Positions 2,086 through 12,643 of a stretch of 64,000 bases of DNA are shown piece after piece. The number at the start of each line of letters is the position of its first letter. Position 1 is the stretch's first letter. The translations under genes and the position numbers were made by a program. The notes under the pieces were generated by a model that searched no databases, was not told the DNA's origin, and saw only the letters and a program-made list of their open reading frames with translations. Source of the stretch: a virus; IMG/VR virus record IMGVR_UViG_3300031576_000018, positions 1-64,000 of that record; one strand, given 5' to 3'.

Positions 2086-2311
2086 ACACTCCAGAGCCAG
2101 AGTAAGAACAGAAGAAGGTGTACATGAATTAGTGCTCTATCAAGAAAAACTCTATCTTACCCACTTAGAGAGTGGAGAAAGCCGTACTATATCGACACCC
2201 TATCATATGGATACGTTACTAGATAAGATTGTACATTTTAGGCTAAAGAATGTGGGTAGGCCTAAAGACCTAGACCCTATAAAGAGGCTCATACAGGAAA
2301 TTGATGAGTAA
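2033..2311 (+). CDS. hypothetical protein
   Basis: 92 residues, mixed alpha/beta, not recognised. It begins with an amphipathic helix (KQIAQQILQHLIEHSRARV). AAGGAG lies about nine bases before the ATG. It overlaps the metallopeptidase gene by 53 bases and the terminase by 8, so it is coupled to terminase expression. Position makes a terminase small subunit conceivable, but no HTH is visible. Confidence 0.6.
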   Translation: MEPTRKQIAQQILQHLIEHSRARVRTEEGVHELVLYQEKLYLTHLESGESRTISTPYHMDTLLDKIVHFRLKNVGRPKDLDPIKRLIQEIDE

Positions 2312-5300
2312 GCTAATTTGTCCACAGAGTAACCAAATTTTGATTGAGTCCTGCATTAAGTTGGGAGAGCGAATAGCGGGTATTCGGCTCTATGACTATC
2401 AGAAGAAGTTTTGCCGAGAGGTTATTTTTGATCTTCTGACTGAGGGAGCTAATACGCTTACCGCACTCTTCTCTAGACAATGTGTTCACCCCGACACTAA
2501 GATAATAACCCCTACAGGTTTTAAGTATGCCCACGAGTTACAAACTAATGACCCTGTACTCTCTGTTTTTGACAATGAGATTTGCATTGACGCTATACGA
2601 GCAAAGACAGTACAGAACTTATTATTTTACAAGATAAAACTTTTTACAAACCATGAGCAAGAAGTCTCTAATATGGAGAGGTTTAAGAAGATAGATCAAA
2701 CGTGGGGCTATATCAAAGACCAATCTATTAAATCAGGCGATCAGATTCAGGTTGCTATTGACCATATTCTCAATGAAGACATTTCTAGAGAGGACTATTC
2801 GGCTAAACAGGCGGGACTTCTTATGTTTGGGCAGCAGTCCCGAATGGACTTATCGGATATTTTAGGTTCCTTAGGTCCTACTAGAAGAGTACAACTCAAA
2901 ACGAAATCGAGAGTGTATGCAGAATCCCTAGCCACCCTCCTCAACACAACAGCATCACAAAGCCAAGATGGGTACACAGTACCTATTGCTTTAGAACCAT
3001 TAGACAGGGAGTATGTTTTTTCGCAGAGGGAGTCTATTCTCAGGCACTTGTTCCAATACGCAGAGATCACCACTTTTCAGTCCAACAGAGGGAAGAAGTA
3101 CAAGATTATTTTCAAGGTAGGTTCTTCAGGTGTGTACAGGGACGCCTTAAGTGCCTTACTCTTGCGAGTTGGCATTATTCACAGGTTCAAGAAAGAAAAT
3201 ATTGAAATTAAGATGTTCGATGGTATTTTTTTATCTCTTCCTTTTCTCAAGACCCATTACCTCTTCTCAGAGCTAAGAAATTATCTCAGGGGTTATAACT
3301 CTAAACTTGGGGTAAGGTTATCACTTAAAGACACCTTCACAATGTTTAAGCAGTTTCCCATCTTACGGGAGTTTGTTAAGGACTCTACGTATAAGTACTA
3401 TAAAAAGAATGGGATTCACTTGACCAAGCTACTCGACCTTCTCTTTAGGACAGAAATTGACCCGGACACGTTGTTTAATTTTCTTCCTAGAACCTATTAC
3501 GCAACGATTAAGGACATTTACTCCACAACTGTAGGTGACGCTATTTCCTTAGAGACAAGAGTGTCAGGAACCTATGTAGCCGAAGGCATGGTAAACCACA
3601 ATTCTGGGAAAACAGAGGCCAATTCAGTTATTTGTTGTTCCATTATGTTGATGTTTCCTCACTTGGCCCATTCTTTCCCAGATGATAACCGCTTTAAAAA
3701 GTTTAAAAAGGGTGTCTGGATAGGTATTTTTGCTCCAAAAGCCGAACAAGCCGATGATTCTTATGAACGGATTAGAACCAAGTTTGAATCAGACACAGGT
3801 AAAGAAATTCTCAACGAGTTCCAAGTCAAGTCCACAGTTTCCAAGGGTGATAGAGTTAAGCTAACAAACGGCTCACGCTGTCGAGCCTGTACAGCCGGAA
3901 AGGACAGTAATATTGAAGGCGATACCCTACATCTTATTATTGGGGAAGAATCTCAGGATATTGACTCTAAGAAGTTTAAAAAGTCCATCCGACCTATGCG
4001 TACAGCCACAGCAGGAACTATCTTAATGATAGGCACAGCCAATATGATTCGGTCGTACTTCTGGGAGACAATTACTCTTAACAAGCGAAAGACTAAGGAA
4101 GCCCAGCGACAATTTCACATTCAAGTGGATTATCAGGAAGCCTCCAAAGTCAATCCGAAGTATGCGATTTCAGTTGTTAAAGAGATAGAAGAGATGGGTA
4201 TCGACTCAGACGAGTTTAAAATGTCCTATATGAACCTTTTTCTCTTCGAGAGGGGTATGGCATTTAAACCAGAGCAATTAGAGCCATTTCACCCCATACT
4301 AAACCCAGAGGGTCTATTCTACAATTATGAAACAACAAACTTTTACAACGGGTACAAGACAGTGATTGTTGGAATTGACGTTGGGAAGCAACAAGATAGG
4401 ACATTTTGCGTGGCTGTGGAGGTAGATTTTGAAAATCCCATCATTGGGAAGCACTTTATAGCCTATCACAAGAAATTAATCGGCTGGACGTGTATGTTAG
4501 GTGATAATTTTCCCCAACAACAGGGAAAAGTAGTCGATTTTCTAGCCCAAATGAACGCCTCAAAAGTCCTGATGGACACCACAGGTAAAGGAGATGCTTT
4601 TTTTGACTATTTGGCAGAAGCCTGTGAACATATTGAGTTTGTTCCTATCCCTTTCTCCTCCAAGTCTAAGCATATGATGTACAGAAGCCTCATTTACGAC
4701 ATGAACGCAGGAAGGGTGCAGTTTCCTTGTGGTAAAGAGACGAAAAAACAGGAACCTTACCACCATTTTATTAGAGAAATGGGAGAATTAGAGAAGAGCT
4801 ACACAGGTGCTTATCTATCCTGCCATAAACCGACTCGATCTGAACACGGAGTACCGCATGATGATGCTTGCTTTCATCCAGATACACCTATGCTAATAAA
4901 AAGAGGCGGTAGAGTGGTTTGCGTAAATATTTCAGAAGCTGTTGTAGGTGATTTAGTGATTACAGACAAGTCTCGATTTAAACCTGTGGTAGCTACAATG
5001 AAAAGAGAATTTGATGGCACGTTGGTAGAGATTAATATTAAGAAGTTGGGTAAATGCTTAGTCACAGCAAATCACCCTATTTTAACTACTACTGGCTATG
5101 TACCCGCGGGGGAACTTAAGTCTGGTAAACATAAAGCTATTAAAACTTTTTACAAAGGAGAGGACAAAGAGGAGCTACCAGACTTCGACCTGCTTCCGGT
5201 TTTTGAAAATTTAGCCAGAAGTTCTAAAAAGAATAATGCTTTAATAGATATGTCCAAGATTATAAGCAAGGGTAAGAAAATAAAATTTAACAACCCTAAA

Positions 5301-6176
5301 GCTAAGTTTCACAACCGCTTTATTAAAATAACCCCCGATCTCTGTAGGTTAATCGGTTATTTTATCTCAGAAGGTGCGTGTGGAAAGCACAGCGTGCAGT
5401 TTTCGTTTAACACGAAAGAGACAGAGTTGCATAAAGATGTTACTAATCTGCTGGCTAAGTGTTTTGGTATCGCTAAGAAAAGTATTGGCGTTCGTCATAA
5501 CGCAAACAACAGCACCGCCGTCTACACTTCGTCTAGAGTAATCAGAGAGTTCTTTAAAAGCCTTGTCCCAGGTACTTCCTCTGATAGAGCGATACCTACG
5601 TTTATCCTAGAGTTAGCACTTGAGTTTAAAGAACAGGTTTTACGTGGTATTTGGCTAGGTGACGGGTATTACAATGAAAGGCAAGTATCTATCGTAACAA
5701 CTTCTCCAACTTTGGCTTATCAGATGAGGGATTTATTCAGTGAACTGGGGGCTATATTCTCAATTGATGTCTCTAAGAGAGCTGGGCGTACTTGTTTAAT
5801 CCGTGATCGGGAAGTAAATCACAACTACGATCTCTTTCAACTTCGCGCAATGTATTTCAAGGATTACAACAAATCTTTAGCTCTTTTAAGCATGGTTACA
5901 AACAATCTAAAAAAAGAGTCTGCTTTTCACAAAGTAGTGGCTGTAGCAGAAGAAACAAGGGTTGTGGCGGAGATACGGTCAATTAAATATTTGCATAAGC
6001 AAGAAAATCAATTCGTTTATAACTTGGAGGTTGAAGATGACCATTCATATACGGTTAACAACCTTACTGCCCATAACTGCGATGCGTTAGCGTTAGCATG
6101 TTATGGAGCTAAGATAGAAGAGAACACGAATCAACAATATGTTGAGGTACGAGATAACATTTTTTACACGAATTAG
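2304..6176 (+). CDS. terL: terminase large subunit with two inteins
   Basis: A 1290-residue precursor that would give a 513-residue packaging motor after splicing. Extein features: Walker A SRQ-SGKTE, split by intein 1; Walker B-like HLIIGEESQDID; coupling motif GTANM; and an RNase H-like nuclease with VGIDVGKQQD, VLMDTTGKGD and HDDA-CDALALA, the last split by intein 2. The enzyme translocates DNA into proheads and cuts concatemers. ATG at 2304 is preferred to the TTG at 2301 because AGGA lies five bases upstream. Splicing of both inteins is required for activity, since each interrupts a catalytic motif. Confidence 0.93.
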   Translation: MSKLICPQSNQILIESCIKLGERIAGIRLYDYQKKFCREVIFDLLTEGANTLTALFSRQCVHPDTKIITPTGFKYAHELQTNDPVLSVFDNEICIDAIRAKTVQNLLFYKIKLFTNHEQEVSNMERFKKIDQTWGYIKDQSIKSGDQIQVAIDHILNEDISREDYSAKQAGLLMFGQQSRMDLSDILGSLGPTRRVQLKTKSRVYAESLATLLNTTASQSQDGYTVPIALEPLDREYVFSQRESILRHLFQYAEITTFQSNRGKKYKIIFKVGSSGVYRDALSALLLRVGIIHRFKKENIEIKMFDGIFLSLPFLKTHYLFSELRNYLRGYNSKLGVRLSLKDTFTMFKQFPILREFVKDSTYKYYKKNGIHLTKLLDLLFRTEIDPDTLFNFLPRTYYATIKDIYSTTVGDAISLETRVSGTYVAEGMVNHNSGKTEANSVICCSIMLMFPHLAHSFPDDNRFKKFKKGVWIGIFAPKAEQADDSYERIRTKFESDTGKEILNEFQVKSTVSKGDRVKLTNGSRCRACTAGKDSNIEGDTLHLIIGEESQDIDSKKFKKSIRPMRTATAGTILMIGTANMIRSYFWETITLNKRKTKEAQRQFHIQVDYQEASKVNPKYAISVVKEIEEMGIDSDEFKMSYMNLFLFERGMAFKPEQLEPFHPILNPEGLFYNYETTNFYNGYKTVIVGIDVGKQQDRTFCVAVEVDFENPIIGKHFIAYHKKLIGWTCMLGDNFPQQQGKVVDFLAQMNASKVLMDTTGKGDAFFDYLAEACEHIEFVPIPFSSKSKHMMYRSLIYDMNAGRVQFPCGKETKKQEPYHHFIREMGELEKSYTGAYLSCHKPTRSEHGVPHDDACFHPDTPMLIKRGGRVVCVNISEAVVGDLVITDKSRFKPVVATMKREFDGTLVEINIKKLGKCLVTANHPILTTTGYVPAGELKSGKHKAIKTFYKGEDKEELPDFDLLPVFENLARSSKKNNALIDMSKIISKGKKIKFNNPKAKFHNRFIKITPDLCRLIGYFISEGACGKHSVQFSFNTKETELHKDVTNLLAKCFGIAKKSIGVRHNANNSTAVYTSSRVIREFFKSLVPGTSSDRAIPTFILELALEFKEQVLRGIWLGDGYYNERQVSIVTTSPTLAYQMRDLFSELGAIFSIDVSKRAGRTCLIRDREVNHNYDLFQLRAMYFKDYNKSLALLSMVTNNLKKESAFHKVVAVAEETRVVAEIRSIKYLHKQENQFVYNLEVEDDHSYTVNNLTAHNCDALALACYGAKIEENTNQQYVEVRDNIFYTN
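2481..3602 (+). other. intein 1 in terminase Walker A
   Basis: 374 residues. It starts with Cys (CVHPDTKIITPTG, block A), has a block B TNHEQEV, and ends VAEGMVNHN with Ser as the +1 residue. It sits between SRQ and SGKTE, inside the ATP-binding loop. The middle is large enough for a homing endonuclease, but no intact LAGLIDADG motif is visible, only weak resemblances such as AGLLMFGQ, so the endonuclease is probably decayed or of another type. Confidence 0.9.
4869..6077 (+). other. intein 2 with LAGLIDADG endonuclease
   Basis: 403 residues. It begins with Cys (CFHPDTPMLIKRGG), has block B TANHPILTTTGYVP, and ends YTVNNLTAHN with Cys as +1. It interrupts HDDA/CDALALA in the terminase nuclease. 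Two dodecapeptide motifs, LIGYFISEG (near 5350) and LRGIWLGDG (near 5640), keep acidic residues, so an active DOD-type homing endonuclease is likely. Confidence 0.93.
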
Positions 6177-6702: not shown

Positions 6703-7650
6703 ATGCCTTTAAACAAAATCCCCACATCATGCGCCGTTGTCAGAAAAGATTTTTTCAAAGTAACTAACCATCAACTAACAGCAATTATTCTTAATCAACT
6801 TATTTACTGGACAGAGAGAAGAAAAGATTTTTTAGAGTTTAAAGAAGAGACACTAACTAAAGATACCAAAGAGTTTGGTTGGGTTTATAAGACTGCATCT
6901 GATCTAAAAGAGGAAGTACTAACGGAACAGTCAAGAATGAGTGTTTCAAGAGCCTTAATTAGGTTAGAGGCTTTAGGTATTCTGGATGTAAGAAATGACC
7001 CGAGCAATCATTTTAATAGAGCACTGCAGTATAGGGTTAATTTAGAAAAGTTAGCTGCTCTGGTAAAAGAAAAAGGGTTTGAAAATAGTAAGTATGCAAG
7101 TGTCAAAAAATTCTTTAACATCAAAGGTGAAAGTAAGGAAAACTCGATTTCACACCATGAGCAATGTTCAATGCACACCCTGAGCTTTCCATTGCACAAC
7201 GTGAGCAATGTATATAAGGAATCAGAGATTACAAAAACAGAGATAGAGATATTAAATACAGTTGACGAAGAAATTAAGGCTGTAAACCTAAAAGAATACA
7301 AGGACAAAAAAGAGAAAAATAGAAATCTACCGGCAGGTACTTTACCTATTTGGGCTAAAGGGTTAAAAGACGAAGCATTTTACATACAAGACTTAGGTGA
7401 AAACGTAGTCAATATACGGAGAATAGATTTTCATGAGTTACGAGACTATTACTGTAAAAGCTCTAATTACCTTGAAGAGTTATTTTGTTATTTCTTAGAA
7501 AAAAGATTAACAAAAGAAAGAGTAATTAGAACAATGAATAAGTTCTCAGACAAACCCGACTGCTACAAACCCAGCTTAGAGTCTATTATCACTAGGCACA
7601 CTCCAGAAGTAGACTCAACGATTGAAGATCCAAGATACGCTAGTCTTTAG
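6703..7650 (+). CDS. winged-helix replication initiator-like protein
   Basis: 315 residues in three parts: an N-terminal winged-helix domain (about 1-135; NHQLTAIILNQLIYWTERR, then a recognition region MSVSRALIRLEALGILDV), a hydrophilic linker (about 140-205), and a helical C-terminal domain. This is the architecture of phage initiators such as lambda O and of DnaD-like helicase-recruiting proteins. The DNA encoding the linker carries three iteron-like repeats (7151-7206), as in lambda O. The N-terminal fold is shared with the products at 57979 and 58427. It has its own promoter and lies oddly between terminase and portal. A late-gene regulator is the alternative. Confidence 0.6.
   Translation: MPLNKIPTSCAVVRKDFFKVTNHQLTAIILNQLIYWTERRKDFLEFKEETLTKDTKEFGWVYKTASDLKEEVLTEQSRMSVSRALIRLEALGILDVRNDPSNHFNRALQYRVNLEKLAALVKEKGFENSKYASVKKFFNIKGESKENSISHHEQCSMHTLSFPLHNVSNVYKESEITKTEIEILNTVDEEIKAVNLKEYKDKKEKNRNLPAGTLPIWAKGLKDEAFYIQDLGENVVNIRRIDFHELRDYYCKSSNYLEELFCYFLEKRLTKERVIRTMNKFSDKPDCYKPSLESIITRHTPEVDSTIEDPRYASL
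7151..7206. repeat. three iteron-like repeats in the initiator gene
   Basis: CACACCATGAGC (7151), CACACCCTGAGC (7174) and CACAACGTGAGC (7195) give a consensus CACAMCNTGAGC repeated at 23 and 21 bases, about two helical turns. The first and third continue as GAGCAATGT. They lie in the linker-coding part of the gene, the place of the iterons in lambda O. Confidence 0.55.
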
Positions 7651-7670
7651 AAAGATACTAGGAGAATAAT

Positions 7671-8183
7671 ATGACTACAAAAGTATTTTTATCGTATTTT
7701 GAGCTTAGGCTCATTACTTTCTCTAGAGATATAGACGCAGACCTGTTAAGTAATTTAATTTTTTTAACCAGTTTAACTTCAGATTTTAGTAAATATGTTG
7801 TAGAGGTGTTAAACAGCGAAAAAATAAAGTATGGTTGGGTACGAATAAATCATAAACTGTTAACTGAGCTTTTAGTTACCCGCAGGGCATCAAAAACAGT
7901 TACAAACGCTCTTAACCGTCTTGTCAAGTTGGGTTTAATTAACATTAGAACGAATAAAAATAAAACAGATAAGACAAGACGGTTTAGGGTAAAATTAACT
8001 GAAGTCTCTAGACATCTTCATGCTGTTAACCTACAGGATTCCCAATTTTTTGATTTACCCAATTTATTAGAGAAACAGAAAAAAGAGTCAAAAGAGAATA
8101 AAGAGCTTTATCTTGATGCGTGTTCTTGCTTTTTCACAGGAATGTATACTCAGGATAGGGAGTACACATATGATGTTATCTAG
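7671..8183 (+). CDS. winged-helix DNA-binding protein
   Basis: 170 residues. It has a helical N-terminus and a winged-helix-like segment around residues 55-115 (RINHKLLTELLVTRRASKTV, then NRLVKLGLINIRT and a basic wing NKNKTDKTRR). It resembles the first domain of the preceding gene but lacks the C-terminal domain. CTAGGAG lies seven bases before the ATG, 20 bases after the initiator, so both share the 6605 promoter. Likely a DNA-binding regulator or initiator accessory. Confidence 0.6.
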   Translation: MTTKVFLSYFELRLITFSRDIDADLLSNLIFLTSLTSDFSKYVVEVLNSEKIKYGWVRINHKLLTELLVTRRASKTVTNALNRLVKLGLINIRTNKNKTDKTRRFRVKLTEVSRHLHAVNLQDSQFFDLPNLLEKQKKESKENKELYLDACSCFFTGMYTQDREYTYDVI

Positions 8184-8221: not shown

Positions 8222-8542
8222 ATGGAAAGATTTAAACTTCTCTTTGAGCCTTCTTTGAGCCTACCTGTTGGTGGAAAGCTTACTTTAGCTTTCCCAGTTA
8301 AACACCAACTGCCAGGTGATTTAGGCTATGCCATAACCTCTTCCAGCTTTAGGTTACTATCTTCTTCTGGGGTAGAAACCATTGCATTAACAGCGGGTTT
8401 AAGCTTACAACCTACAGTTGCAGGTTTTACACTAAACTTAACTGCTGTAGCCGCGGGGCAGTACACTTTAGTTGTTAACGTAATTCTGTCTACACAGGAC
8501 GTACTTGTAGCAGAGCAATCACTTTTCTTAGGTGGTAACTAA
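8222..8542 (+). CDS. hypothetical beta-rich protein
   Basis: 106 residues with regular hydrophobic/polar alternation and a pattern seen in Ig-like or other beta-sandwich domains (TVAGFTLNLTAVAAGQYTLVV). It has no membrane segment. It immediately precedes the portal gene, with the stop and next start overlapping (TAATG), so it is probably a minor structural component; the family is not recognised. The nearest purine-rich sequence is too far upstream to be an ordinary ribosome site, consistent with leaderless translation. Confidence 0.6.
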   Translation: MERFKLLFEPSLSLPVGGKLTLAFPVKHQLPGDLGYAITSSSFRLLSSSGVETIALTAGLSLQPTVAGFTLNLTAVAAGQYTLVVNVILSTQDVLVAEQSLFLGGN

Positions 8543-10020
8543 TGGGTTTAGTATCAGATTTTGGAAGGCAGTTCTCAATTTATGCGAAAACTTTGTTTCC
8601 TTCCACAGGTAGTACAGATGTTCTTCCGACCGTAGCCCCAGAGGACGCAGAGCGTTTTTCTCGTTACAGCCTTTTTTGGCGTTTTTACATGGGTCAACAT
8701 TGGGAGAATCCGACAAGACCTGATGGAGAGCCGTACTTAACCGCCAATTATCTACAAGCCTTTGTAGACATTGGAACCTATTATCTGATGAATAAACCTT
8801 GGCAGTTAGTCAATACCGATAAAGATTACTCAGATGAGAAAATACCCTATCTAGATGAGATTTGGAAAAACAATAAGAAGCCAGTTTATTCAATAGAGAA
8901 GGCACAAATGGGCGGGGTAACAGGGGATGCGTTTACTCTCATTATGCCTGACCCACTCACAAATCTGCCTAAAAGCTATCTAGTACCTTCTTCGTTCGTT
9001 TTACCGGTCTGGCATCCAACCGAGAGGGGTGTACTTGTTTCTGGTATAGTGCAATTTCCGCTGAAAATGTCTTCAGCGGGTTCTACTGACGTGATGACCG
9101 TAACTGTGGATTCTATGCGTATTGACCAGTATGTTAACGGTGAACTTGTTAATTCAATTGATCACCGCTTAGGTGAACCCCCTCTCATTCTCACCAGAAA
9201 TAAACTTTTATCCTGTTCAAACAGTGGGGTGTCAGACCTTCAACCGGTTATCGACGTGCAAAGGCAGTTTAACCGTAAATTTACAGACATCGGTGATATT
9301 ATTAATCACCATGCTGCTCCCATTACCATCGTCTACGGCACAAAGCTAAAAAACTTAGAGCGGGGTGCTAATAAAGTGTGGGGAGGTTTGCCTTCTCACA
9401 AAGAAGCCAAGGTAGAGAACCTTAACTCTCTAGGTGATTTAAAAGCTGGGACAGAGCATTTAATGTTTATTCAGAAGGTACTCCATCAATTATCTTTCTG
9501 CCCAGAGATTGCCTTAGGTAAAGAGATGGACATTTCCAACACTTCAGCTCTGGCGATACAGCTTTTATTTGGTCCTCTTCTTTTAGTGACGGAAGCCAAA
9601 CACCATTCTTACGGTCAAGGTTTTATGGACGAGAATCGTATTCATTTAAAATGGGGCATCCGGCTAGGGCTTATAACAGCCCCAAGTACACAAAAGGAAC
9701 TTAACAAGTTCTACAGGGCTCCTGTGAAGTTTGGGGTGGCTCTTCCAAGGGACGACATGTTAAACCTTAACAAAGTAATCAACCGTGCTAAAAACGCATT
9801 AATAACTCCTGAGGAGATGTTTGAGGAGTTGGGCGTAACTAATATTGAAGAATATTGGAATGATATTATGTCTTCTATTGATGAAGGAACGTACCCTGCA
9901 ATGTTACTTACCGCTCAAGAAAAGTTAACTAATTTGGGCGGTGTAATGAGAGATGGGGCGACAAATGAACAAATAGACGATATGATAGTTAAAGAATCTA
10001 ATTCAAGTGGAGGAAAGTAA
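8542..10020 (+). CDS. portal protein
   Basis: 492 residues, the usual size for SPP1 gp6/HK97-type portals. Recognisable parts are the N-terminal region (LFWRFYMGQHWENPTRPDGE, then YLMNKPW), the wing strands around 150-220, the long stem/crown region (DLQPVIDVQRQFNRKFTDIG) and a helical C-terminus. It forms the dodecameric ring at the capsid vertex through which terminase drives DNA. The position between terminase and scaffold/capsid genes supports the call. AGGTGG precedes the ATG, which overlaps the upstream stop by one base. Confidence 0.85.
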   Translation: MGLVSDFGRQFSIYAKTLFPSTGSTDVLPTVAPEDAERFSRYSLFWRFYMGQHWENPTRPDGEPYLTANYLQAFVDIGTYYLMNKPWQLVNTDKDYSDEKIPYLDEIWKNNKKPVYSIEKAQMGGVTGDAFTLIMPDPLTNLPKSYLVPSSFVLPVWHPTERGVLVSGIVQFPLKMSSAGSTDVMTVTVDSMRIDQYVNGELVNSIDHRLGEPPLILTRNKLLSCSNSGVSDLQPVIDVQRQFNRKFTDIGDIINHHAAPITIVYGTKLKNLERGANKVWGGLPSHKEAKVENLNSLGDLKAGTEHLMFIQKVLHQLSFCPEIALGKEMDISNTSALAIQLLFGPLLLVTEAKHHSYGQGFMDENRIHLKWGIRLGLITAPSTQKELNKFYRAPVKFGVALPRDDMLNLNKVINRAKNALITPEEMFEELGVTNIEEYWNDIMSSIDEGTYPAMLLTAQEKLTNLGGVMRDGATNEQIDDMIVKESNSSGGK

Positions 10021-10289: not shown

Positions 10290-11546
10290 ATGACTTTAGA
10301 AGAACTTTTAGCCGCTATTAAGGCTTTGCCAAAATCAGAACAAGCAGAATTAACTAAACACTTACCTACTGGTTTAGTTAAAGATCTGACGAAGACTGCA
10401 AAAGCAGAAGTGCAAACAACTTATGAATCGCAACTTGCCGACCTTCAAAAGCAGAACGCACAACTTAGTAAAGAGATAAAGGGACTTCAAAAGTCAGGTC
10501 AATCTGATGCTCAATCTCAATTGGTACAAAACACGTATCAACAAGCTATGGACCAATTGAGTGGACAGTTTAATACTCAATTTCAGCAGTTACAACAGCA
10601 ACTAAAAATGGCTGAGGTAGCGGCTGCTAAATCAGACGTTATCGCTGAATATGGTTTACCACTAACAATGAAAAATCTTATTCACGGTAACTCTCCTGCT
10701 GAACTTCAAGAGGCTGCTTTGTACGCAACTCAATTCCTCAATGAATTTAAACAATCTCAAGAAGTTGAGTTTGCGAAGAAGCATAATATTACACTTGGTG
10801 AGGCACAGGCAGTTATTGCACAGGCACAAGCACCACAACAACAAGCCCAACAACCTCAACAAACTGCTCAAGTGCAAGCTGTAACACAGCAACAACAAGC
10901 CCAACCAGCAGCAGAGCAACAACAAGCAGCTCCTCTAACGGTTGAACAAATACTGGCTCCTTATGCCCAACAACTTCAACAGATGCAACAACATCAACAG
11001 GTGGACACAGCATCTATGGGTTTGTCAGGCGTAGCTCGTAATACGTTGGATGGGAAAAGTAGTAACCCCTATCAACAATCTCAATATTTAGCCCAACAAA
11101 TTCCACAGAGTATGCAAGTTACCAATCACAATATGCAATCTCCTCAACAAGTTCAACAAACGATGCAACTCTTACAGCAAGCCTTGGCAAATAATCAAGC
11201 TGCACAGGTTAGTACTAATTTACAGCCGTTGATGCAAACCCAGTTTCAACAACAACCTCAACAAGCACCTGCTCAGTTTGATCAAGCCCAGTTAATACAA
11301 TTAGCTCAACAATTGCAACAGGCTCAACAACAACCACAAATGCAACAGCAGGTGAATCCCCTAGCGCCTGTTTTGCCGAACAATGTGATACCTTTTAATT
11401 TGGCTCAAAGTCAACAGTCACAACAGGTTAACTCATCACAGCAATTACAACAAATGCCAATGACTGAGTATAATAAGACTAGGCAAAGTCATTTAAGTGC
11501 GTCTAAACAACGTTTAAATGGTTCACCTAAAGCGTATGGTTATTAA
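10290..11546 (+). CDS. Gln-rich scaffold-like protein
   Basis: 418 residues. The N-terminal part (1-110) is helical and coiled-coil-like (ESQLADLQKQNAQLSKEIKG). The rest is extraordinarily Gln-rich, with runs such as QQPQQTAQVQ and LAQQLQQAQQQPQ, ending in a basic tail (SASKQRLNGS). The position between portal and major capsid and the elongated helical composition fit a scaffolding protein that templates prohead assembly. No protease gene or protease motif was seen nearby. AAGAGG precedes the ATG. A tail- or capsid-associated structural role is the alternative. Confidence 0.6.
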   Translation: MTLEELLAAIKALPKSEQAELTKHLPTGLVKDLTKTAKAEVQTTYESQLADLQKQNAQLSKEIKGLQKSGQSDAQSQLVQNTYQQAMDQLSGQFNTQFQQLQQQLKMAEVAAAKSDVIAEYGLPLTMKNLIHGNSPAELQEAALYATQFLNEFKQSQEVEFAKKHNITLGEAQAVIAQAQAPQQQAQQPQQTAQVQAVTQQQQAQPAAEQQQAAPLTVEQILAPYAQQLQQMQQHQQVDTASMGLSGVARNTLDGKSSNPYQQSQYLAQQIPQSMQVTNHNMQSPQQVQQTMQLLQQALANNQAAQVSTNLQPLMQTQFQQQPQQAPAQFDQAQLIQLAQQLQQAQQQPQMQQQVNPLAPVLPNNVIPFNLAQSQQSQQVNSSQQLQQMPMTEYNKTRQSHLSASKQRLNGSPKAYGY

Positions 11547-11584: not shown

Positions 11585-12643
11585 ATGCCTATTATACAAA
11601 GCGGCTTAGTGGGGCTACAGGCTCCCCCAACGTCACCTAATGTAACATCCGCATTGACAGCTCTAGATATTGTTGTTCACTCCAAAGAGCTGCTTTGGCA
11701 GTCATTACCTAGAATGGAGTTTTTGCAATTTGCTGTGCCTCGTCTAGAGCTGGGCGCACAACCAGGACACACCATTCGATTTATTAAGCACCAGAACATT
11801 AATCGTGGTGGTAAGGTTAAGGAATCAGTTCGGCTTGTAACTAAAGATTATGCAATTGGAACGGTCAACGTCACCGTACATGAATTTGCCAATGCTACTT
11901 CTGTAACCGACTTCTTACTTTTATCTAATCCCTATGACCAGATGGAAGCCATGGTCAAACTGCTTTCAGATGACTATGCAAAAGTTGTTGATGAACATTT
12001 TATTGAAGTTATATACCAAACTACACCCACCGTTATGTTTGGTAACGGCACGGTAGCGTCTAGGGCCGCGCTTGTAGCAGGTAATACATTTACTACGGCT
12101 ACAGTTCGCTATGCAGTTACGCTAGCAGCCAAAAAACTCATTCCCATGTTCACACAGCCCCGTATGGACGGTGGAGGAATGACCTCGTTTTATATCTGCT
12201 TTGTAACACAAGAGCAGTGTAAGACTTTGATGGAAGACTCAGCCTGGACAGATGCCTCATTATATGCTGGTGCTGTTCAAATATTTACCGGAGAAGTCGG
12301 CATGTACTACGGTGTTAGGTTTATTAAAACCACTCAAACGCCTATTATAAAAGCTGCGACTGGAAATATTATCGTTAGTGGCTATGATTTAACTTCCAAC
12401 AAACCCCTAGAGTTCCCTGCTGGATTTAGTGTAGCTGCTCATGCCACGCTCGATGTCCATGCCGCCTGTCTCTTTGGAGACTATGTTTATGCAATCGCTG
12501 AAGGTATGCCTGTTGGTATTTACACCAACGGTATCTTAGACTTTGGTAGAGAGCATGACTTGGCTTGGCGCTCAGTTATGGGGGCTGCTCTATTAAATAA
12601 TGACCGAATTATAGTAATAGAAACGGCACAAACAACAATTTAA
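11585..12643 (+). CDS. major capsid protein (N4-gp56-like)
   Basis: 352 residues. The N-terminal and central sequence resembles the N4-gp56 family of HK97-fold capsids: an early block ending PGHTIRFIKHQNINRGGKV, then a strand-rich E-loop region, a helical section (DDYAKVVDEHFIEVIYQ), and a C-terminal block with YAIAEGMPVGIYT. It makes the icosahedral shell. The gene follows the scaffold-like gene with a 38-base gap carrying an AAGGAA-type ribosome site. The family call rests on recalled patterns; the functional call is firmer because of position and size. Confidence 0.8.
   Translation: MPIIQSGLVGLQAPPTSPNVTSALTALDIVVHSKELLWQSLPRMEFLQFAVPRLELGAQPGHTIRFIKHQNINRGGKVKESVRLVTKDYAIGTVNVTVHEFANATSVTDFLLLSNPYDQMEAMVKLLSDDYAKVVDEHFIEVIYQTTPTVMFGNGTVASRAALVAGNTFTTATVRYAVTLAAKKLIPMFTQPRMDGGGMTSFYICFVTQEQCKTLMEDSAWTDASLYAGAVQIFTGEVGMYYGVRFIKTTQTPIIKAATGNIIVSGYDLTSNKPLEFPAGFSVAAHATLDVHAACLFGDYVYAIAEGMPVGIYTNGILDFGREHDLAWRSVMGAALLNNDRIIVIETAQTTI

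Follow-up and report, generated by a model that had tools for sequence, protein, structure and literature searches.

A viral terminase large subunit gene interrupted by two inteins in two different catalytic motifs

We analysed the first 64,000 nucleotides of the IMG/VR virus record IMGVR_UViG_3300031576_000018 (90,839 bp in total); this stretch is hereafter called the window, and all coordinates refer to it. Its plus strand carries a gene whose ATG overlaps the 3' end of the preceding open reading frame (ORF) and which codes for a tailed-phage terminase large subunit (TerL) interrupted by two inteins. One intein is inserted in the Walker A motif of the ATPase domain and the other in motif III of the nuclease domain. 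The gene and its parts are the following, a slash marking the point of insertion here and below.

2304..6176, plus strand: terL precursor gene, 1290 codons
2304..2480, plus strand: N-terminal extein of 59 amino acids (aa), ending in ALFSRQ, the first half of Walker A, as placed by alignment with intein-free TerLs
2481..3602, plus strand: intein 1, 374 aa (CVHPD...MVNHN, +1 Ser), at the site SRQ/SGKT in Walker A
2676..2678, plus strand: residue 66 of intein 1, Glu (GAG) at the block-B histidine position (SNME vs S/TxxH)
3060..3062, plus strand: residue 194 of intein 1, Ala at the catalytic-acid position of the second LAGLIDADG helix (LRHLFQYAE aligned with LRGIWLGDG)
3546..3548, plus strand: residue 356 of intein 1, Ser (TCC) at the block-F aspartate position, from alignment and codon
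3603..4868, plus strand: middle extein, 422 aa, with the Walker A SGKT, Walker B and most of the nuclease domain, ending in HDDA
4869..6077, plus strand: intein 2, 403 aa (CFHPD...LTAHN, +1 Cys), at the site HDDA/CDAL in nuclease motif III
5073..5075, plus strand: block-B histidine of intein 2, present (TANH), from alignment and codon
5370..5372, plus strand: first LAGLIDADG catalytic acid of intein 2, Glu168 (LIGYFISEG), from Pfam, alignment and codon
5661..5663, plus strand: second LAGLIDADG catalytic acid of intein 2, Asp265 (LRGIWLGDG), from Pfam, alignment and codon
6078..6173, plus strand: C-terminal extein, 32 aa, starting with CDALALAC

Removal of both inteins in silico gives a predicted TerL of 513 aa, the spliced length that a first-pass annotation of this DNA had announced and that follows exactly from the ORF and its junctions. 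The joined protein matches the TerL families of PHROG (phrog_2, 1.3e-25), whereas its matches to Pfam Terminase_6N/6C fall below the cut-off, and it shares 33% identity with intein-free TerLs of Streptomyces phages. When aligned with those and other intein-free TerLs, the joined exteins run without a gap across both junctions. The motifs that harbour the junctions, SRQSGK[TS] and HDDxxDS, are nearly invariant, with RQ-GK present in 92/92 rows of the alignment and DD in 91/92. The catalytic residues of TerL, i.e. the Walker A GK, the Walker B glutamate and the nuclease aspartate, are invariant. Walker A, Walker B, the nuclease acidic residues and a packaging gene context together identify the protein as a terminase large subunit. 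The first-pass annotation had placed one intein in Walker A and the other in the HDDA/CDAL nuclease motif. Both junctions proved exact, the first being supported by the gap-free extein alignment and by profile and fold matches, and the second by the same alignment and by Pfam domains. That this TerL has an intein in each of two catalytic motifs is confirmed, and chance is excluded.

No RNA element was found in the window by Rfam at the gathering threshold, and hence introns do not explain the inserts in terL. Neither a second TerL, including an intein-less copy of the kind that would refute the reading of the first-pass annotation, nor further inteins besides this pair were found in the 90.8-kb record, which may be incomplete. 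Automatic annotation may miss or fragment a TerL of this kind. We estimate at roughly 0.87 the probability that terL codes for a precursor of 1290 residues with two cis-splicing inteins that differ in age and lifestyle. Each intein would excise itself and ligate its exteins, most likely spontaneously, which would restore SRQSGKT and HDDACDAL and yield the 513-residue motor. It had been argued that both inteins must leave before packaging; this is a sound inference, since each of them splits residues needed for the ATPase or the nuclease, Walker A serving to bind ATP and motif III to cleave DNA.

By its sequence, intein 2 is unambiguously a canonical class 1 intein with an intact LAGLIDADG endonuclease. 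It has Cys1, the TANH motif, a terminal AHN and a +1 Cys. Pfam recognizes both its splicing domain (Intein_splicing PF14890, 6.6e-10, 39.4 bits, above cut-off) and its endonuclease (LAGLIDADG_3 PF14528, 2.1e-12, 47.5 bits), and the two helices of the latter each contain an acidic residue (FISEG and LGDG). Intein 2 looks mobile in the window phage, as judged from these intact residues. It would be a mobile element whose spread takes place in the DNA, by way of a target sequence that TerL has little freedom to alter. Its homologue at the same site of IMG/VR contig 3300035670_009024 (L141/L154) shares 29% identity with it and has lost both catalytic acids.

Inteins at the nuclease site, HDDx/CD[AS]L, were found in L141 and four other contigs (L146, L147, L150 and L233), as well as in the published Mic1 phage. 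The carriers were identified as TerLs by Pfam for L147, L150 and L233 and by PHROGs for L146. The nuclease-site inteins of L146, L150, L233 and Mic1 are related to one another across TerL lineages, and only weakly to that of the window. Such cross-lineage kinship is as expected for an element that homes to a conserved site. Contig L125 also codes, on its minus strand, for a probable terminase of 1090 aa with inteins at Walker A (NR/C) and at a nuclease-like site (KDF/CDLVRY). Its family was confirmed by neither Pfam nor PHROGs, and it was not counted as a TerL.

Intein 1 is an intein by descent, with an atypical active site. At its junctions are Cys1, a terminal NHN and a +1 Ser nucleophile, and the -1 residue is a glutamine that is invariant in TerLs. 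On its own it has no match in Pfam or PHROGs, as might be expected if Walker A had received, in frame, an unrelated sequence rather than an intein. This explanation, which we regard as extremely improbable, is refuted by the junction residues and by several lines of homology. A profile of intein 1 and its three relatives matches solved inteins (gp41-1, 6.9e-10), and the profile-profile match to other TerL inteins covers its full length (98%). The AlphaFold model of intein 1, based on a 10-row alignment, has a mean predicted local distance difference test score (pLDDT) of 73.8, with values of ~90 for residues 1-90 and 341-374. In the PDB, it matches homing-endonuclease inteins best (E 2.7e-11; TliVMA and PI-PfuI by Foldseek). 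A fold computed from the single sequence was discarded (pLDDT 36).

The block-B histidine has been described as the most highly conserved intein residue (PMC6333167). In intein 1, this position is occupied by Glu66 in 3/3 MAFFT modes, and the alignment of the intein 1 family profile with gp41-1 also supports this assignment. A shifted reading of block B (TNH, residues 56-58) was rejected; the spacing between Glu66 and the next Trp is that of the histidine in the relatives L104 and L155. Both of these retain the block-B histidine as well as the block-F aspartate, the latter being replaced by Ser356 in the window. As the GAG and TCC codons are each at least two base changes away from a codon of the consensus residue, a single sequencing error explains neither Glu66 nor Ser356. 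Judging from these residues, the splicing chemistry of intein 1 must be unusual, and its N-terminal junction would be activated without a block-B histidine in this phage. Intein 1 also lacks the catalytic acids of a LAGLIDADG endonuclease. None of the four family members has a DG/EG motif, and Ala194 is invariant among them, in a helix register that is deduced by alignment and varies between alignment modes. Intein 1 looks old and immobile on these grounds.

Single-protein searches for close relatives gave no matches. Relatives were recovered through alignment-based and junction-pattern searches; the pattern scans detect exact codon choices only, and all counts are therefore lower bounds. Relatives of intein 1 were found on contigs L104/L198, L141/L154 and L155. 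The TerLs of the window, L104, L141 and L155 belong to one supported clade, recovered by a scan with patterns outside the Walker A junction, and intein 1 is present in 4/4 members in which Walker A is sequenced. The only other row of the clade, L216, starts after Walker A, and its label 'none' in the tree thus really means 'unknown'. This distribution fits a single old insertion inherited by descent. Intein 1 would be common to the whole clade, with a decayed endonuclease, and would have persisted vertically because precise loss is rare. In both inteins, codon positions 1 and 2 diverge less than position 3, a pattern consistent with selection on the proteins. The ratio of nonsynonymous to synonymous substitution rates was dropped for the inteins because synonymous sites are saturated.

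Several points weigh against two functional inteins, the first of them vertically inherited. The losses of the block-B histidine and the block-F aspartate could mean that splicing of intein 1 is slow or fails. Vertical inheritance is based on four sequences with 23-33% intein identity, the Walker A intein of L141 runs off the end of its contig with its N-terminal half unseen, and the TerL tree comes from a quick search with support from the Shimodaira-Hasegawa-like approximate likelihood ratio test (SH-aLRT) only. Taken to its end, the first point would mean that intein 1 has lost splicing, perhaps retaining only cleavage, and that this terL allele is dead or on its way to being so. The histidine-to-glutamate and aspartate-to-serine replacements are indeed confined to the window phage, and each is too many base changes away to be one sequencing slip. 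We nevertheless consider this unlikely, as intein 1 keeps Cys1, Ser63, His373, Asn374 and the +1 Ser, the reading frame is open across all codons of the precursor, the catalytic residues of TerL are intact and the record has no second TerL. In addition, splicing is known from natural inteins devoid of a block-B histidine, whose absence can be offset by a bulky -1 residue (PMC6333167). Those of the Tko CDC21-1 group naturally lack this histidine and splice by a compensatory route (PMC6333167). They reside in another host protein, however, and intein 1 of the window has a glutamate at that position and has lost the block-F aspartate as well.

The first-pass annotation had further suggested that the two splicing steps could be timed or redox-controlled through cysteines at both insertion points. 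Cys1 is present in both inteins, but a +1 Cys is found at the nuclease site only, the +1 residue at Walker A being Ser. Cys1 and the +1 Cys are the ordinary catalytic pair and do not in themselves point to a switch. The only real hint of unusual chemistry is the loss of the block-B histidine in intein 1, on which the first-pass annotation was silent. A redox-regulated intein should have a conserved non-catalytic cysteine to pair with the catalytic one. Among the homologous inteins that occupy these two sites, the catalytic Cys1 is the only conserved cysteine; C35 of intein 1 and C18, C63, C159, C171, C198 and C309 of intein 2 are all replaced in relatives. The redox proposal found no support in this comparison, and timing control gained no positive support. 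In a reporter system, 5/5 TerL inteins tested by others spliced readily, and the endonuclease was active in 2/2 tested (PMC5050341). Some room is left for timing control in that intein 1, with its atypical active site, may splice slowly.

More generally, one or both inteins might splice conditionally and serve as a timed or redox-controlled gate for packaging. Both insertions lie within catalytic motifs, Cys1 meets a +1 Cys at the nuclease site, and the active site of intein 1 is atypical. The authors of the Mic1 study proposed the same control (PMC7156551), and the two inteins of Mycobacterium smegmatis DnaB have very different rates, the P-loop one being redox-sensitive (PMC6195587). The lack of conserved non-catalytic cysteines at either site, the +1 Ser and -1 Gln of intein 1 and the ready splicing of the TerL inteins tested make this doubtful in our view, and homing into conserved DNA together with rare precise loss explains the location in catalytic motifs. 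We have similarly little confidence in a specific variant of it, in which the atypical active site of intein 1 (Glu66, Ser356) would make Walker A assembly rate-limiting while intein 2 exits fast, thereby gating packaging. The proposed order would resemble that of the M. smegmatis DnaB inteins, a precedent for inteins of one protein that differ greatly in rate (PMC6195587).

Spontaneous splicing of two inteins with distinct histories, which we favour, can be set against known systems. The closest published case is the Mic1 TerL (MN013189), for which biosensor control of packaging was proposed without a test (PMC7156551). As in the window, the ATPase and nuclease domains harbour one intein each, that of the nuclease domain occupies the equivalent site (DHL/CDALRY in Mic1, DDA/CDAL­AL in the window) and one of the two has a LAGLIDADG domain. 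In contrast, Mic1 TerL belongs to another lineage, unmatched by tblastn with the window TerL, and its ATPase-domain intein is in the C-motif (LLTG/TPKG) rather than in Walker A. The endonuclease is in that intein, and the nuclease-site one is a mini-intein of 146 aa, the reverse of the situation in the window. The L141/L154 contig has homologous inteins at both sites and a middle extein 50% identical to that of the window; the intein identities are 26-29%, intein 2 is without both catalytic acids and the contig ends inside intein 1.

In a survey of mycobacteriophages (Kelley 2016), inteins occurred in TerL more often than in any other host protein, and Walker A was among the ATPase motifs that contained them (PMC5050341). 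The seven sites all fall within the ATPase domain, the nuclease domain having none, and the 'classic' site, GK/T, is three residues from the Walker A site of the window (PMC5050341). The TerL ORF OBYQ01000140 of the crAss-like Delta group also has two inteins; they were called Hint-Hop type, and the ORF is also TAG-recoded (PMC7886860). M. smegmatis DnaB is likewise an ATPase with two inteins, of which the P-loop one has no endonuclease and the other does, but it is a replicative helicase, and its P-loop intein is of class 3 with a demonstrated redox disulfide (PMC6195587).

Two-intein TerLs (Mic1 and the crAss-like OBYQ01000140) and the regulatory idea (Mic1) are thus already known (PMC7156551, PMC7886860). 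Relative to the open-access literature (other reports may exist), what is new is the pairing of Walker A and nuclease inteins in this type of TerL, its second occurrence in L141, the repeated use of the nuclease site in different TerL lineages and an intein 1 without the block-B histidine. TerL is an intein hot spot, and the nuclease motif is used recurrently in several lineages, although the mycobacteriophage survey had sites in the ATPase domain only. The presence of the pair in two related phages, with an immobile, divergent intein 1 beside an apparently mobile intein 2, offers a direct test between retention because an intein is hard to lose and retention because it is put to use.

Insertions in Walker A are common. 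A scan with the junction pattern HN/SGKTE returned at least 51 viral contigs, mostly with evident inteins ending exactly at the Walker A SGKT, and several of these are TerLs of the window type. On the TerL tree, no fewer than 6 changes are needed to account for the SRQ/S site, and no fewer than 10 when inserts of every kind are considered, making Walker A a repeated target. Two TerLs (L085, L197) have inteins at the GK/T site instead, and in two others (L050, L163) the motif contains an insert resembling a group I intron. These two terL genes are related to each other, and in both a non-coding insert interrupts the Walker A SGK (L050:300-615 and L163:1430-2530). RF00028, the group I intron model, hits the insert of L050 at 27.7 bits (E 3.5e-5), under the gathering score, and the insert of L163 has core sequence in common with that of L050 and contains a LAGLIDADG-like ORF. 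Walker A thus takes inserts at three positions, two of them used by inteins and the third by introns.

A second lineage of Walker A inteins (L172, L181, L191) is also devoid of the LAGLIDADG acids, which suggests that homing has been lost yet the intein retained at Walker A more than once. L106 codes for an ORF of 765 aa with a 140-aa mini-intein at the Walker A site of the window. L104 (minus strand, ~12781-10100) codes for a two-intein TerL with the Walker A intein and a 153-aa mini-intein just past Walker B (KKIRK/C...SSN/SISPM), at the intein site of Bacteroides phage BS162P1 (L002).

Two genes of the packaging context of terL were identified downstream of it.

8542..10020, plus strand: portal protein (phrog_64, 5.2e-22)
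11585..12643, plus strand: major head protein (phrog_1357, 1.1e-33)

Upstream of terL, a small ORF (1639-2085) resembles IrrE-like (M78) metallopeptidases, with a Pfam match below the cut-off. Two adjoining ORFs between terL and the portal gene (6703-8183) are DnaD-like, of the helicase-loader or replication-initiation type, an odd location for replication genes. Finally, an ORF of 418 aa very rich in glutamine (10290-11546) separates the portal gene from the major head gene, in the usual position of a scaffold gene.

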